The notes under the pieces: model-generated
Databases searched by the model: none
What the model was told of the DNA's origin: nothing
Seen by the model: the letters and a program-made list of their open reading frames with translations, nothing else
NCBI GenBank assembly: GCA_029573495.1
Contig: JAKQEI010000104.1
Span: 1 to 64,000 of the forward strand
Reading direction: 5' to 3'
DNA length: 64,000 nucleotides
Origin: Bacteroidota bacterium
GTDB taxonomy: Bacteria > Bacteroidota > Bacteroidia > Flavobacteriales_F > PHOS-HE28
Position numbers and translations under genes: made by a program
Shown: positions 3,831 to 47,439 of the stretch, piece after piece
How positions within the stretch are numbered: the first letter of the stretch is position 1
Layout: every line of letters starts with the position of its first letter

Positions 3831-4976
3831 CTACAACGTCCCCCTGTTCTCCTGCTCCCGTTCGATCGCCTCGAATAGCGCTTTGAAGTTGCCCTTGCCG
3901 AAGCTCTTCGCGCCCTTGCGCTGGATGATCTCGAAGAACATCGTGGGGCGGTCCAGCACCGGCTTGGTGAAGAGTTGCAAGAGGTAGCCCTCGTCGTCGC
4001 GGTCCACCAGCACACCGTGCTCCTTCAGCACCGCCAGGTCCTCGTCGATCTCGCCTACGCGGTCCAGCACGTCATCGTAGTAGGTGGGCGGCACGTACAG
4101 GAACTCCACGCCGCGGTCCTTCAGCGCGCTCACCGTTTCGATGATGTTGTTAGTGGCCACCGCGATGTGCTGCACGCCGGCGCCGTTGTAGAACTCGATG
4201 TACTCCTCGATCTGGCTCTTCTTCTTGCCCTCGGCCGGCTCGTTGATCGGGAATTTGATGCGGCCATTGCCATTGCTCATCACCTTGCTCATCAGCGCGG
4301 TGTACTCCGTGCTGATGTCCTTGTCATCGAAGCTCACCAGCTGCGCGAAGCCCATCACCTTGGCGTAGAACTCCACCCATTTGTTCATCTCGCCCCAGCC
4401 CACGTTGCCCACCATGTGGTCGATGAACTTCAGGCCGGTAGGCGGCGGGTTGTAGTGGCTCTTCCAGGGCTTGAAGCCTGGCATGAACGCGCCTTTATAG
4501 TTGTCGCGCTCCACGAAGATGTGCACCGTCTCCCCGTAGGTATGGATGCCGCTCTTCACCACGTAGCCGTGCTCATCCTCCTCGCGCACGGGCTCCATGA
4601 AGCTCTTCGCGCCGCGCTTGGTGGTCTCCTCCCAGGCCTTCTTCGCATCGGGCACCCACAGGGCGATCACCTTCACGCCATCGCCGTGCTTGCGGATGTG
4701 CTCGTTGATCGGGCTATCCGGCGTCATCGGCGTGGTGAGCACCAAACGGATCTTGTCCTGCACCAGCACGTAGCTCGTGCGGTCCTTCACGCCCGTTTCC
4801 AGGCCGGCGTAGGCCAGGCTCTGGAAGCCCCAGGCGGTCTTGTAGTAGTGCGCGCTCTGCTTGGCATTGCCCACGTAAAGTTCCACGTAGTCCGTACCCA
4901 GCAAGGGCAGGAAGTCCTGTGCATCGGCCATGATCTTCTCCAGGCCGTAGTCGACGTCTTTCAATCCGGTTGCCAT
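3831..4976 (-). CDS. hpd: 4-hydroxyphenylpyruvate dioxygenase
   Basis: HPPD motifs: IDHMVGNV, GVQHIAVATNNI, LLQLFTKPVLDRPTMFFEIIQRKGAKSFGKGNFKALFEAIEREQENRGTL. Confidence 0.96.
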   Translation of the reverse strand: MATGLKDVDYGLEKIMADAQDFLPLLGTDYVELYVGNAKQSAHYYKTAWGFQSLAYAGLETGVKDRTSYVLVQDKIRLVLTTPMTPDSPINEHIRKHGDGVKVIALWVPDAKKAWEETTKRGAKSFMEPVREEDEHGYVVKSGIHTYGETVHIFVERDNYKGAFMPGFKPWKSHYNPPPTGLKFIDHMVGNVGWGEMNKWVEFYAKVMGFAQLVSFDDKDISTEYTALMSKVMSNGNGRIKFPINEPAEGKKKSQIEEYIEFYNGAGVQHIAVATNNIIETVSALKDRGVEFLYVPPTYYDDVLDRVGEIDEDLAVLKEHGVLVDRDDEGYLLQLFTKPVLDRPTMFFEIIQRKGAKSFGKGNFKALFEAIEREQENRGTL

Positions 4977-4985
4977 GTTCTTGGG

Positions 4986-5021
4986 GATCAGAAGATCAGA
5001 AGATCAGACGATCAGACGATC
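4986..5021. repeat. 8-bp tandem array GATCAGAA x2, GATCAGAC x2, GATC
   Basis: Direct reading: GATCAGAAGATCAGAAGATCAGACGATCAGACGATC; inverted relative to 5513-5544. Confidence 0.95.
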
Positions 5022-5041
5022 GCCCGAGCCACCGACCCGCG

Positions 5042-5497
5042 TTAGTGTTTCAGTTTCTCGTTGTTGGTGGAAATGATCTTGTTCAACACCCGGACTATCG
5101 GAATCAGCCTGTCGAGGCAGGTCCTAGCGTTCTGGATGTTCCGTTCGATGCACAGGAGCAACCAATACTCCGTCTCATCAGCCTCCTTCAATGCGATCTT
5201 CGTCTTGTGGATGAAGTCCTTCAAGCTCTCGCCGTTCTGTGCTTCACGTACCAATGCGCCAATAGCAGTACCGCTTCGGAAAAGCTGGTCGGACACGGCG
5301 TATTTCTTCGCCTCTTGAAGCTCCTCCGCCAGATCCCAGACCGCAAGAGCGAACTGGAAGGTCATCGATACGATCGCATTGTCCTTGTACCGCGCATTGT
5401 ATGAGGCAGGTGGCTCCGAAACGATGCCGTAACCAACAAGCTCATCCCGCACCAGCGCGTTCTGCCACTCCTTGATATCAATGCTCCTCAGGTCCAT
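5042..5497 (-). CDS. Four-helix-bundle protein (S23 ribosomal / 23S rRNA IVS-encoded family)
   Basis: Family-like segments FQFALAVWDLAEEL...SDQLFRSGTAIGALVREAQNGESLKDFIHKTKIALKEADETEYWLLL. Confidence 0.88.
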   Translation of the reverse strand: MDLRSIDIKEWQNALVRDELVGYGIVSEPPASYNARYKDNAIVSMTFQFALAVWDLAEELQEAKKYAVSDQLFRSGTAIGALVREAQNGESLKDFIHKTKIALKEADETEYWLLLCIERNIQNARTCLDRLIPIVRVLNKIISTNNEKLKH

Positions 5498-5512
5498 GGG
5501 CCGCTCCCAATT

Positions 5513-5544
5513 TTCTGATCGTCTGATCTTCTAATTGTCTGATC
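5513..5544. repeat. 8-bp array TTCTGATC GTCTGATC TTCTAATT GTCTGATC (inverted partner of 4986-5021)
   Basis: Reverse complement GATCAGAC AATTAGAA GATCAGAC GATCAGAA; matches the left array at 28 of 32 positions when aligned. Confidence 0.93.
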
Positions 5545-5546
5545 GG

Positions 5547-6704
5547 CTATTCCAACCAGCTCTTCCAGTACTTCCCGTCGTCGATCTTCAGCGCCTCCTC
5601 CGTCACCATCAGCGGCTTGAAGGTGTCCACCATCACGGCCAGCTCATCGGTCACTTTTTTGCCGATGCTGCGCTCCATGGCGCCGGGGTGCGGACCGTGC
5701 GGGATGCCAGCGGGGTGCAGGCTGATGTGGCCTGGGCCGATGTCGTTGCGGCTCATGAAGTCGCCATCGACGTAGTAGAGCACCTCGTCGCTGTCGATGT
5801 TGCTGTGGTTGTAGGGCGCGGGGATGGCCTGCGGGTGGTAGTCGTAGAGTCGCGGCACGAAGCTGCATACCACGAAGGCGTCGGTCTCGAAGGTCTGGTG
5901 GACGGGTGGCGGCTGGTGCACGCGACCGGTGATGGGCTCGAAGTCGTGGATGCTGAAGGCGTAGGGGTAGTTGTAGCCGTCCCAGCCCACCACATCGAAG
6001 GGGTGCGAGGCATACACCAGCTCGTGCAGCATGTTCTGCTTCTTCACCTTGATCACGAAGCTGCCCTTCTCGTCGTGGGTCTCCAGTTTCTTGGGACGGC
6101 GGATGTCGCGCTCGCAGAAGGGGCTGTGCTCCAGCAGCTGGCCGAACCAGTTGCGGTAGCGCTTCGGCGTGTACATGGGGCGGTGGCTCTCCACGATGAA
6201 GAGGCGGTTGTCCGCGTCCTTGAACTCCATGGTGTAGATCATCCCGCGGGGGATCATCAGGTAATCGCCGTACTTGAAGTCGATGTTGCCCAGGAAGGTG
6301 CGCAGGGTGCCGCTGCCCTTATGCACGAAGATCATCTCATCGCAGTCGGCGTTCTTGTAGAAGTAGTCCACGCTCTTCGCCTGGGGAGCGGCGAGCACGA
6401 TGGCGCAATCGCTGTTCACCAGGATGGGCTTGCGGGCGGCCAGGTGGTCCTTCGCGGGAGTTGCCTTGAATCCGTGCAGCCGGAGCGAACGCATGTTCTT
6501 TTCAATGGCGATCTTCGGGGTGACGTCCTTGGGCTTGCGCAGCTCCTTCACCATGGTGGGCCGGTGCACGTGGTAGCTCAGGGTGCTCATGCCATCGAAG
6601 CCGACGGTGCCGAAGAGCTGCTCGTAGTAGTAGCGGTCCTTGCCGTTCTTGAAGACGGTGTGGCGCTTGTGGGGGATCTTGCCGAGGGAGTGGTAGATGG
6701 GCAT
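5547..6704 (-). CDS. hmgA: Homogentisate 1,2-dioxygenase
   Basis: Start MPIYHSLGKIPHKRHTVFKNG...; GDYLMIPRGMIYTMEF, SLHPAGIPHGPHPGAMERSIG motifs. Confidence 0.93.
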   Translation of the reverse strand: MPIYHSLGKIPHKRHTVFKNGKDRYYYEQLFGTVGFDGMSTLSYHVHRPTMVKELRKPKDVTPKIAIEKNMRSLRLHGFKATPAKDHLAARKPILVNSDCAIVLAAPQAKSVDYFYKNADCDEMIFVHKGSGTLRTFLGNIDFKYGDYLMIPRGMIYTMEFKDADNRLFIVESHRPMYTPKRYRNWFGQLLEHSPFCERDIRRPKKLETHDEKGSFVIKVKKQNMLHELVYASHPFDVVGWDGYNYPYAFSIHDFEPITGRVHQPPPVHQTFETDAFVVCSFVPRLYDYHPQAIPAPYNHSNIDSDEVLYYVDGDFMSRNDIGPGHISLHPAGIPHGPHPGAMERSIGKKVTDELAVMVDTFKPLMVTEEALKIDDGKYWKSWLE

Positions 6705-6709
6705 TTCCG

Positions 6710-6742
6710 GTTGCGTGTTGGCGCGTTGCGTGTTGCGGGTTG
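6710..6742. repeat. 7-8 bp phased GTTG array upstream of hmgA start
   Basis: GTTG at 6710, 6717, 6725, 6732, 6739 in ggttgcgtgttggcgcgttgcgtgttgcgggttg. Confidence 0.7.
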
Positions 6743-6757
6743 TCCGTTCGCACAAGC

Positions 6758-44618: not shown

Positions 44619-44667
44619 ACGGCAATATTCCTGATGCGGGGATCACCGGGAGTAGGATCGCTAGGAA

Positions 44668-44830
44668 CGGGCTTTCCCTTTCGGGGAGGGCTTCGACCAG
44701 AAGCCTATCGCTTCGCGATCACCTTCATCCGTTCCTTCATTTCGCCCAAGCTTCGCTTGGCTCATTCGCAAACGAATGAAGCCGCTTTGCAGCGGCTTCT
44801 GGTCGGCGGAGAGAGAGGGATTGCCCGAGA
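44668..44830. repeat. 163-bp tandem repeat, unit 1 (contains a 16-nt copy of the tRNA-Ser 3' end at 44807-44822)
   Basis: Near-identical to unit 2; begins cgggctttccc. Confidence 0.95.
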
Positions 44831-44985
44831 CGGGCTTTCCCATTGGGGGAGGGTTTCGACCAGAAGCCTATCGCTTCGCGATCACCTTCATCCGTTCCTT
44901 CATTTCGCCCAAGCTTCGCTTGGCTCATTCGGAAACGAATGAAGCCGCTTTGCAGCGGCTTCTGGTCGGCGGAGAGAGAGGGATT
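44831..44985. repeat. 163-bp-period tandem repeat, unit 2 (runs into the tRNA-Ser 3' end)
   Basis: Four hairpins: ATCGC-TTC-GCGAT, CCAAGC-TTC-GCTTGG, TCATTCG-GAAA-CGAATGA, GAAGCCGCT-TTGC-AGCGGCTTC; outer arms GACCAGAAGCC/GGCTTCTGGTC. Confidence 0.95.
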
Positions 44986-45056
44986 CGAACCCCCGTTACC
45001 CTTTCAGGTAAACACACTTTCCAGGCGTGCGCCTTAAACCACTCGGCCATCTCTCC
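44970..45056 (-). tRNA. tRNA-Ser (anticodon GGA)
   Basis: Reverse complement GGAGAGATGGCCGAGTGGTTTAAGGCGCACGCCTGGAAAGTGTGTTTACCTGAAAGGGTAACGGGGGTTCGAATCCCTCTCTCTCCG; long variable arm; 7-bp acceptor; CCA not encoded. Confidence 0.96.
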
Positions 45057-47389: not shown

Positions 47390-47399
47390 GGCGGGTGCC

Positions 47400-47439
47400 C
47401 ATGTGACCATGTGCGCATGTGTTCATGTGCCCATGGTCG
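47400..47439. repeat. 8-bp phased array CATGTGAC CATGTGCG CATGTGTT CATGTGCC CATGGTCG
   Basis: CAT at 47400, 47408, 47416, 47424, 47432; lies 10 bp upstream of the minus-strand permease start. Confidence 0.95.

Follow-up and report, generated by a model that had tools for sequence, protein, structure and literature searches.

The window analysed here, a stretch of 64,000 nucleotides from a Bacteroidota bacterium, carries an hmgA-like and an hpd-like gene that are separated by a compact block consisting of one small gene bounded on either side by an array of a short tandem repeat. The two arrays are inverted with respect to each other. The features at the locus, all of them on the minus strand, are as follows.

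3831..4976, minus strand: hpd-like 4-hydroxyphenylpyruvate dioxygenase, the downstream host gene (Pfam Glyoxalase 3.9e-23, HPPD N-terminal 2.8e-6).
4986..5544, minus strand: the whole S23 cassette, 559 bp, a sense insertion between hmgA and hpd.
4986..5021, minus strand: 3' arm, the inverted copy of the array (GATCAGAA twice, GATCAGAC twice and GATC on the plus strand), from sequence and Tandem Repeats Finder (TRF).
5042..5497, minus strand: S23 (23S_rRNA_IVP) four-helix-bundle protein, 151 aa (Pfam PF05635, E=1.7e-19).
5513..5544, minus strand: 5' arm, in transcript order GATCAGAC.AATTAGAA.GATCAGAC.GATCAGAA, from sequence and TRF, pairing with the 3' arm when the transcript is folded.
5547..6704, minus strand: hmgA-like homogentisate dioxygenase, the upstream host gene (Pfam HgmA_N 1.1e-12, HgmA_C 4.8e-5; ATG start inferred).

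Direct reading of the plus strand gives GATCAGAA.GATCAGAA.GATCAGAC.GATCAGAC.GATC at 4986-5021 and the inverted array TTCTGATC.GTCTGATC.TTCTAATT.GTCTGATC at 5513-5544. Each arm has four 8-bp units, and 28 of 32 positions match when the arms are folded onto each other. TRF detects both arrays with a period of 8 (scores 58 and 43/50), the one at 4986-5021 as 4.5 copies with 96% match. The gene enclosed by them belongs to the S23 family, its product scoring 70.5 bits against PF05635 where the cut-off is 33.8. The first-pass annotation, made from the letters of the window, had described a 151-aa S23 gene between inverted arrays of GATCAGAM, and sequence, TRF and Pfam all confirm it. It had also noted that the block fills the gap between hmgA and hpd, and this too is correct: the left array lies 9 bases from the hpd start codon (4976) and the right array 2 bases from the hmgA stop codon (5547). 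The hmgA gene most likely starts with the ATG at 6704 rather than the TTG at 6755. Just 5' of this probable start there is a degenerate heptamer array (GTTGCGT, 4.6 copies, 6710-6742) with no adjoining S23 gene. Elsewhere in the window, an octamer array of about 5 copies of GTGCCCAT lies at 47395-47435, and a 163-bp unit present twice with 97% match (44667-44985) adjoins a tRNA gene (44970-45056, minus strand).

S23-family proteins were first described in the intervening sequences (IVSs) of 23S rRNA, for example in Leptospira and Coxiella, where the ORF is flanked by inverted repeats that form a stem. The element in the window likewise has complementary ends enclosing an S23 ORF. The predicted fold of the transcript has an energy of -211.9 kcal/mol (z=-4.0) with the arms paired over 7+22 bp around the ORF. 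Its location is between hmgA and hpd and not inside a 23S or 16S rRNA gene, and a search of Rfam gave no family matching it.

The structural model of the S23 protein (pLDDT 81) is a four-helix bundle. Foldseek places 2rld first (TM 0.84-0.90, of the target), followed by 2gsc (0.80-0.84) and the Avd protein 4dwl, and finds a likeness to the ribonucleoprotein of a diversity-generating retroelement (DGR), 8ube, as well. Both 2rld and 2gsc are S23 proteins and were deposited with five chains. Of the sequence matches in the PDB, only 2rld was retained, all others having E values above 0.03. The protein is under purifying selection, with a dN/dS between orthologue copies of 0.05-0.15 in all pairs with a defined ratio but one; the exception is the closest pair of genomes, G020/G033, with 0.51 at low divergence.

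In the sampled groups, S23 genes as a rule have inverted arrays. The arms were judged against shuffles, mismatched arm pairs, window genes and cleaned neighbour genes. Within the genus, the inverted repeat formed by the two flanks scores higher than the 99th percentile of shuffles at 89 of 113 S23 loci, and mismatched arm pairs pass the threshold in 39 of 339 cases. A period of 7 is found in 70 upstream and 68 downstream flanks of these loci and a period of 8 in 24 and 14, respectively. An independent set of 80 S23 loci, 75 of them usable, was taken from Bacteroidota, Geobacter, Vreelandella, Nitrospirae, Cloacimonadota, Calditrichaceae and others. Inverted arms are present at 57 of the 75, and own arm pairs score above mismatched pairs (median 15 versus 8). 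Lag-7 periodicity is seen in 51/75 upstream and 53/75 downstream flanks of this set, and lags 4-6, 10 and 13 give 0-1. When S23 genes from other species are compared with control genes from the same loci, inverted arms are found at 88/118 of the former versus 0/29 of the latter (Fisher p=1e-14). Heptamer arrays in a single flank also occur at nine of the 29 controls, so one-sided arrays do not discriminate, but inverted arms do. The architecture extends to cyanobacterial plasmids, where inverted arms beat all shuffles by a margin of at least 1.0 at 8/13 S23 loci and period-7 arrays lie in at least one flank of 12/13 genes; the arm units there include GGGAGTA, AAAGCTA, GGTGACA and GGGAACA. About a quarter of S23 genes have no significant arms.

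The units are mostly degenerate 7-mers and otherwise 8-mers, and their sequence varies between loci. A search for octamer arrays at the other four S23 genes of the same genome, as proposed in the first-pass annotation, found none with GATCAGA arms. Three of the four have inverted tandem arms all the same, with different units that are mostly heptamers. An octamer-only search would therefore miss them. A cassette specific to the octamer was rejected in favour of locus-specific units, as GATCAGA arms are limited to one subfamily.

The length of the unit goes with the protein. Throughout the phylum, relatives with about 47% identity or more to the window protein have octamer arms and more distant ones heptamer arms, with one exception (L344, 40% identity). 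On a tree of 151 S23 proteins, 117 tips of which were scored, the period changes between 7 and 8 three times, whereas shuffled labels require 14.3 changes on average and never fewer than 11. The octamer clade occupies many different host loci, so the link between period and phylogeny is not due to shared locus history alone. This tracking of the S23 tree by unit length is the strongest hint that protein and repeats work together.

The host sites are functionally unrelated and include hmgA-hpd, scoA-scoB, recN, hypC, MraY, cas6-cas4, cmr2-cmr3 and nrdB-nrdA, the names of the non-plasmid host genes having been assigned by eye from short translated stretches. On cyanobacterial plasmids an S23 gene lies between cas6 and cas4 at two loci from two genera (L375, L376) and between cmr2 and cmr3 at another (L383). 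Repeat arms are clear in L375 and L376 and weaker in L383, and these copies are therefore more plausibly insertions than cas genes.

For the junction between hmgA and hpd, the hmgA regions of 30 genomes were compared. The genome of the window (G000) and G010, G016, G020, G002 and G033 have an S23 gene there whose inverted arms consist of GATCAGA arrays. The site is empty in G005, G007 and G015, which have bare spacers of about 30 bp, and in G011; a single-unit remnant is found in G013 and arrays plus another gene in G023. In G057, from another family, the S23 gene has AT-rich octamer arms. Presence is thus sporadic, as for IVSs, and the search for empty sites in relatives urged by the first-pass annotation was successful. 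Its cassette idea was to fail if all relatives were filled and no other S23 gene had arrays, and this is not what was found. Filled and empty states are intermixed on the hmgA tree. Between G020 and G033, hmgA is 79% identical and the cassette plus hpd 93% identical, which means that cassette and hpd were transferred together from one lineage to another, the boundary of the transferred segment lying at the array. A simple history of horizontal insertion was rejected because the states are intermixed and cassette and hpd were transferred together at least once. Presence and absence at the site can also be explained by vertical descent with loss plus homologous recombination. A second cassette in G016, at an unrelated locus, has the same GATCAGA arms and an S23 gene of the same subfamily with 69-77% identity to the hmgA-hpd copies. 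The spacers of the empty alleles are too short and diverged to define a target-site duplication, and the loci compared gave no instance of transposition, target duplication or an excision product.

A dispersed repeat of a different kind, ..CACCCTGAGCGGAGTCGAAGGGTGGGCGTGCC..TCCGC..CCTCGCT..GGGCTTTCCGC..AATCGCTCACGCG, lies 3' of hmgA in L018, L020, L021, L027 and L038. In relatives that lack the S23 cassette, this CACCCTGAGCGGAGTCGAAGGGTGGGCGTGCC-AATCGCTCACGCG repeat, for which there is no Rfam family, occupies the position 3' of hmgA together with the toxin-antitoxin- or transposase-like genes that follow it.

Arrays of the octamer are not confined to S23 genes: the genus has an interspersed family of such arrays, (RATYAGNN)n. 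The exact doubled octamer GATCAGAMGATCAGAM occurs nine times in the 4.07-Mb genome and the reversed-pattern control not at all. Allowing one mismatch, there are up to 67 matches per genome within the genus (33 in G000), at most three in other families and none for the controls. Taken singly, the octamer shows no enrichment in the window (eight seen versus 5.3 expected), so the non-random part is the tandem arrangement. Octamer arrays lie at three other places in the genome of the window without S23, those in G010, G002 and G033 mostly do not adjoin any S23 gene, and GATCAGA arrays are abundant in G013, G022 and G023, which have no matching S23 gene. As in the short tandem repeats known as STRR and heptamer arrays, a short unit in tandem has dispersed intergenic copies, both for GATCAGAN (8 bp) and for AGTTGTC (7 bp). 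The latter also serves as arm unit in a different S23 lineage; a genome can contain as many as 275 dispersed copies, and those listed lie in convergent pairs. The unit GGCTACG, which belongs to an S23 gene in G010, is found only at that gene among four genomes. Close pairs of GATCAGA arrays with opposite orientation are convergent (+,-) in 13 cases and (-,+) in none; consecutive opposite arrays are always convergent and so form hairpins. One GATCAGA array (3215-3254 of L108, G010:C1:1924000-1930500) lies within a 2055-aa open frame and is apparently read through in frame. At L352, L355, L356 and L370 a Y1 (RAYT-type) gene lies near a GATCAGA array, above the expectation from array density.

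We consider it probable that the block represents a mobile, IVS-like S23 cassette which resides in an operon instead of in rRNA. In such a cassette, a single S23 gene would be enclosed by inverted arrays that form the ends of the element; their short unit has 8 bp in this instance. In the hmgA-hpd transcript the arms would pair into a stem of roughly 30 bp closing on the S23 ORF and, by analogy with rRNA IVSs, a host double-strand nuclease such as RNase III may cut this stem. The S23 protein, whose solved relatives are pentameric with the Avd fold, may bind its own repeat stem as RNA or as folded DNA; for the window protein the predicted stem is (GAUCAGAC)n/(GUCUGAUC)n. The arrays presumably expand or shrink by slippage and recombine. 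More speculatively, arrays without S23 could be non-autonomous derivatives, and the cassette might have spread at least partly via recombination through the arrays.

The cassette interpretation, first put forward in the first-pass annotation, is largely supported and general beyond the window locus, given the empty alleles in G005, G007 and G015, the second copy in G016 and the arms on most S23 genes of the genus. The accompanying comparison with IVSs has gained strength, because the Coxiella IVS also has paired ends and tandem heptamers before its S23p ORF (PMC4990558). In that IVS two to three copies of GACAGAT, variable in number between strains, lie just before the ORF, and RNase III cuts in a 28-bp stem (PMC4990558). 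A bolder reading, offered tentatively and with some doubt, is that S23 proteins are the autonomous partners of dispersed 7/8-mer arrays (STRR, TAACTGA) across Bacteria, each lineage recognizing its own unit length, and that solo and hairpin arrays are their non-autonomous offspring, comparable with MITEs and their transposons. It is supported by the greater number of GATCAGA arrays in genomes that have a GATCAGA-type S23 gene, 14-56 versus a median of 8 (p=0.0012; 0.004 among near-complete genomes). Across genomes, the association between the number of AGTTGTC arrays and a matching S23 gene is not significant (p=0.14).

Other origins for the block have been considered. The inverted arrays could be selfish hairpins of the REP/BIME or MITE kind, mobilized by a transposase acting in trans (RAYT/Y1 or a different one), with the S23 gene trapped as a passenger between a pair of them. 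The convergent orientation of opposite arrays and the predominance of GATCAGA arrays without S23 agree with this, Y1 transposases are present in 30 of 39 genomes of the genus, and an array lies within about 1.5 kb of 4/20 strong Y1 loci, three of them independent. A passenger, however, explains neither the arms with different units around S23 genes of many phyla nor the tracking of the S23 tree by unit length, and the genome of the window, with its 33 array matches, has 0 matches to Y1_Tnp and hence no cognate transposase of that type. RAYT was rejected as the mover on account of its absence from this genome and weak proximity elsewhere, and we regard the passenger explanation as a whole as unlikely. 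The retroelement explanation is very improbable. It would have S23, as a relative of Avd, copy the cassette via RNA with a reverse transcriptase supplied in trans, and it draws on the likeness of the model to Avd 4dwl and the DGR ribonucleoprotein 8ube and on the sense orientation in operons. Against it, RVT_1 is found in just 4/39 genomes of the genus and in none of the cassette carriers G000, G010 (a single contig), G016 and G033. A reverse transcriptase in trans was rejected because so few genomes of the genus have one, and current mobility by this route is unlikely.

There is also little probability that S23 is an ordinary small operon gene, a resident regulator of its host operon with the arrays as translational or attenuation elements. 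Purifying selection and orientation agree with such a role: in the Bacteroidota-rich sets the gene is co-directional with both neighbours in 97/114 cases and opposite to both in 1/114. Control genes from the same loci are similarly co-directional (111/149, with 5/149 opposite to both), however, so much of this bias reflects operon structure, and on cyanobacterial plasmids three of the 13 S23 genes run antisense to the genes on either side, so the orientation is not absolute. TAACTGA arrays were proposed by MacGregor as translational or attenuation elements, and for Beggiatoaceae it was suggested that heptamer arrays located immediately 5' of start codons serve as sites for a regulator (PMC4679880). 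The GATCAGA arrays adjoin start codons in 19/79 cases versus 24% for random positions, which is not above chance, and a rule that arrays lie flush with start codons was rejected. The operon-gene explanation also meets host genes as unrelated as hmgA-hpd, scoA-scoB, recN, cas6-cas4, cmr2-cmr3 and nrdB-nrdA, and sites that are empty in relatives.

The mobile cassette, our preferred reading, bears on two long-standing puzzles. To our knowledge, no function has been found for S23/IVS proteins since 1993, and we know of no origin for the heptamer arrays of cyanobacteria and other bacteria. The packaging of most S23 genes between inverted arrays, together with the tracking of phylogeny by unit length, ties the two puzzles together and suggests that the S23 family and bacterial short-repeat arrays belong to a single type of mobile element. 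S23 genes located between cas or metabolic genes should not be taken as members of those operons.

Several known systems resemble the element in part. With the IVSs of 23S rRNA in Leptospira, Coxiella and CPR bacteria, the last of which have S23 genes in their rRNA insertions (PMC11270868), it shares an S23 ORF inside inverted, stem-forming ends and a sporadic, horizontally acquired occurrence. It differs in having a protein operon as host, explicit inverted arrays as arms and an architecture repeated at many unrelated sites. The cyanobacterial STRR and TAACTGA-type arrays, with 7-bp units scattered among Cyanobacteria, Bacteroidetes and Gammaproteobacteria (PMC4679880, PMC4692102), are also intergenic tandem short units with many copies per genome, for which no transfer mechanism was evident in the case of TAACTGA (PMC4679880). 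Unlike them, the arrays described here occur as inverted pairs linked to S23 genes, with a unit of 8 bp in the window. S23 is mentioned nowhere in the texts of PMC4679880 and PMC4692102, and in the open-licence literature the link between S23 and arrays is confined to the upstream heptamers of Coxiella, though earlier reports may exist. Avd of the Bordetella phage DGR (4dwl, 8ube) has the S23 fold, but its identity to the window protein is about 14%, and the window element has no template repeat, variable repeat or reverse transcriptase (no RVT_1 match in G000). REP/BIME sequences with RAYT are likewise dispersed as convergent hairpins between genes, whereas the arms here are tandem arrays of variable length with an S23 gene inside and no Y1 transposase in the genome. 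The 23S_rRNA_IVP genes in cas loci have been listed as CRISPR-associated (PMC3936711) and, like some copies described here, lie between cas6 and cas4 or cmr2 and cmr3; the copies examined here carry repeat arms (L375 and L376, more weakly L383). What is new is the general rule of arrays and the link between period and phylogeny; the element itself is a variant of the S23/IVS elements.
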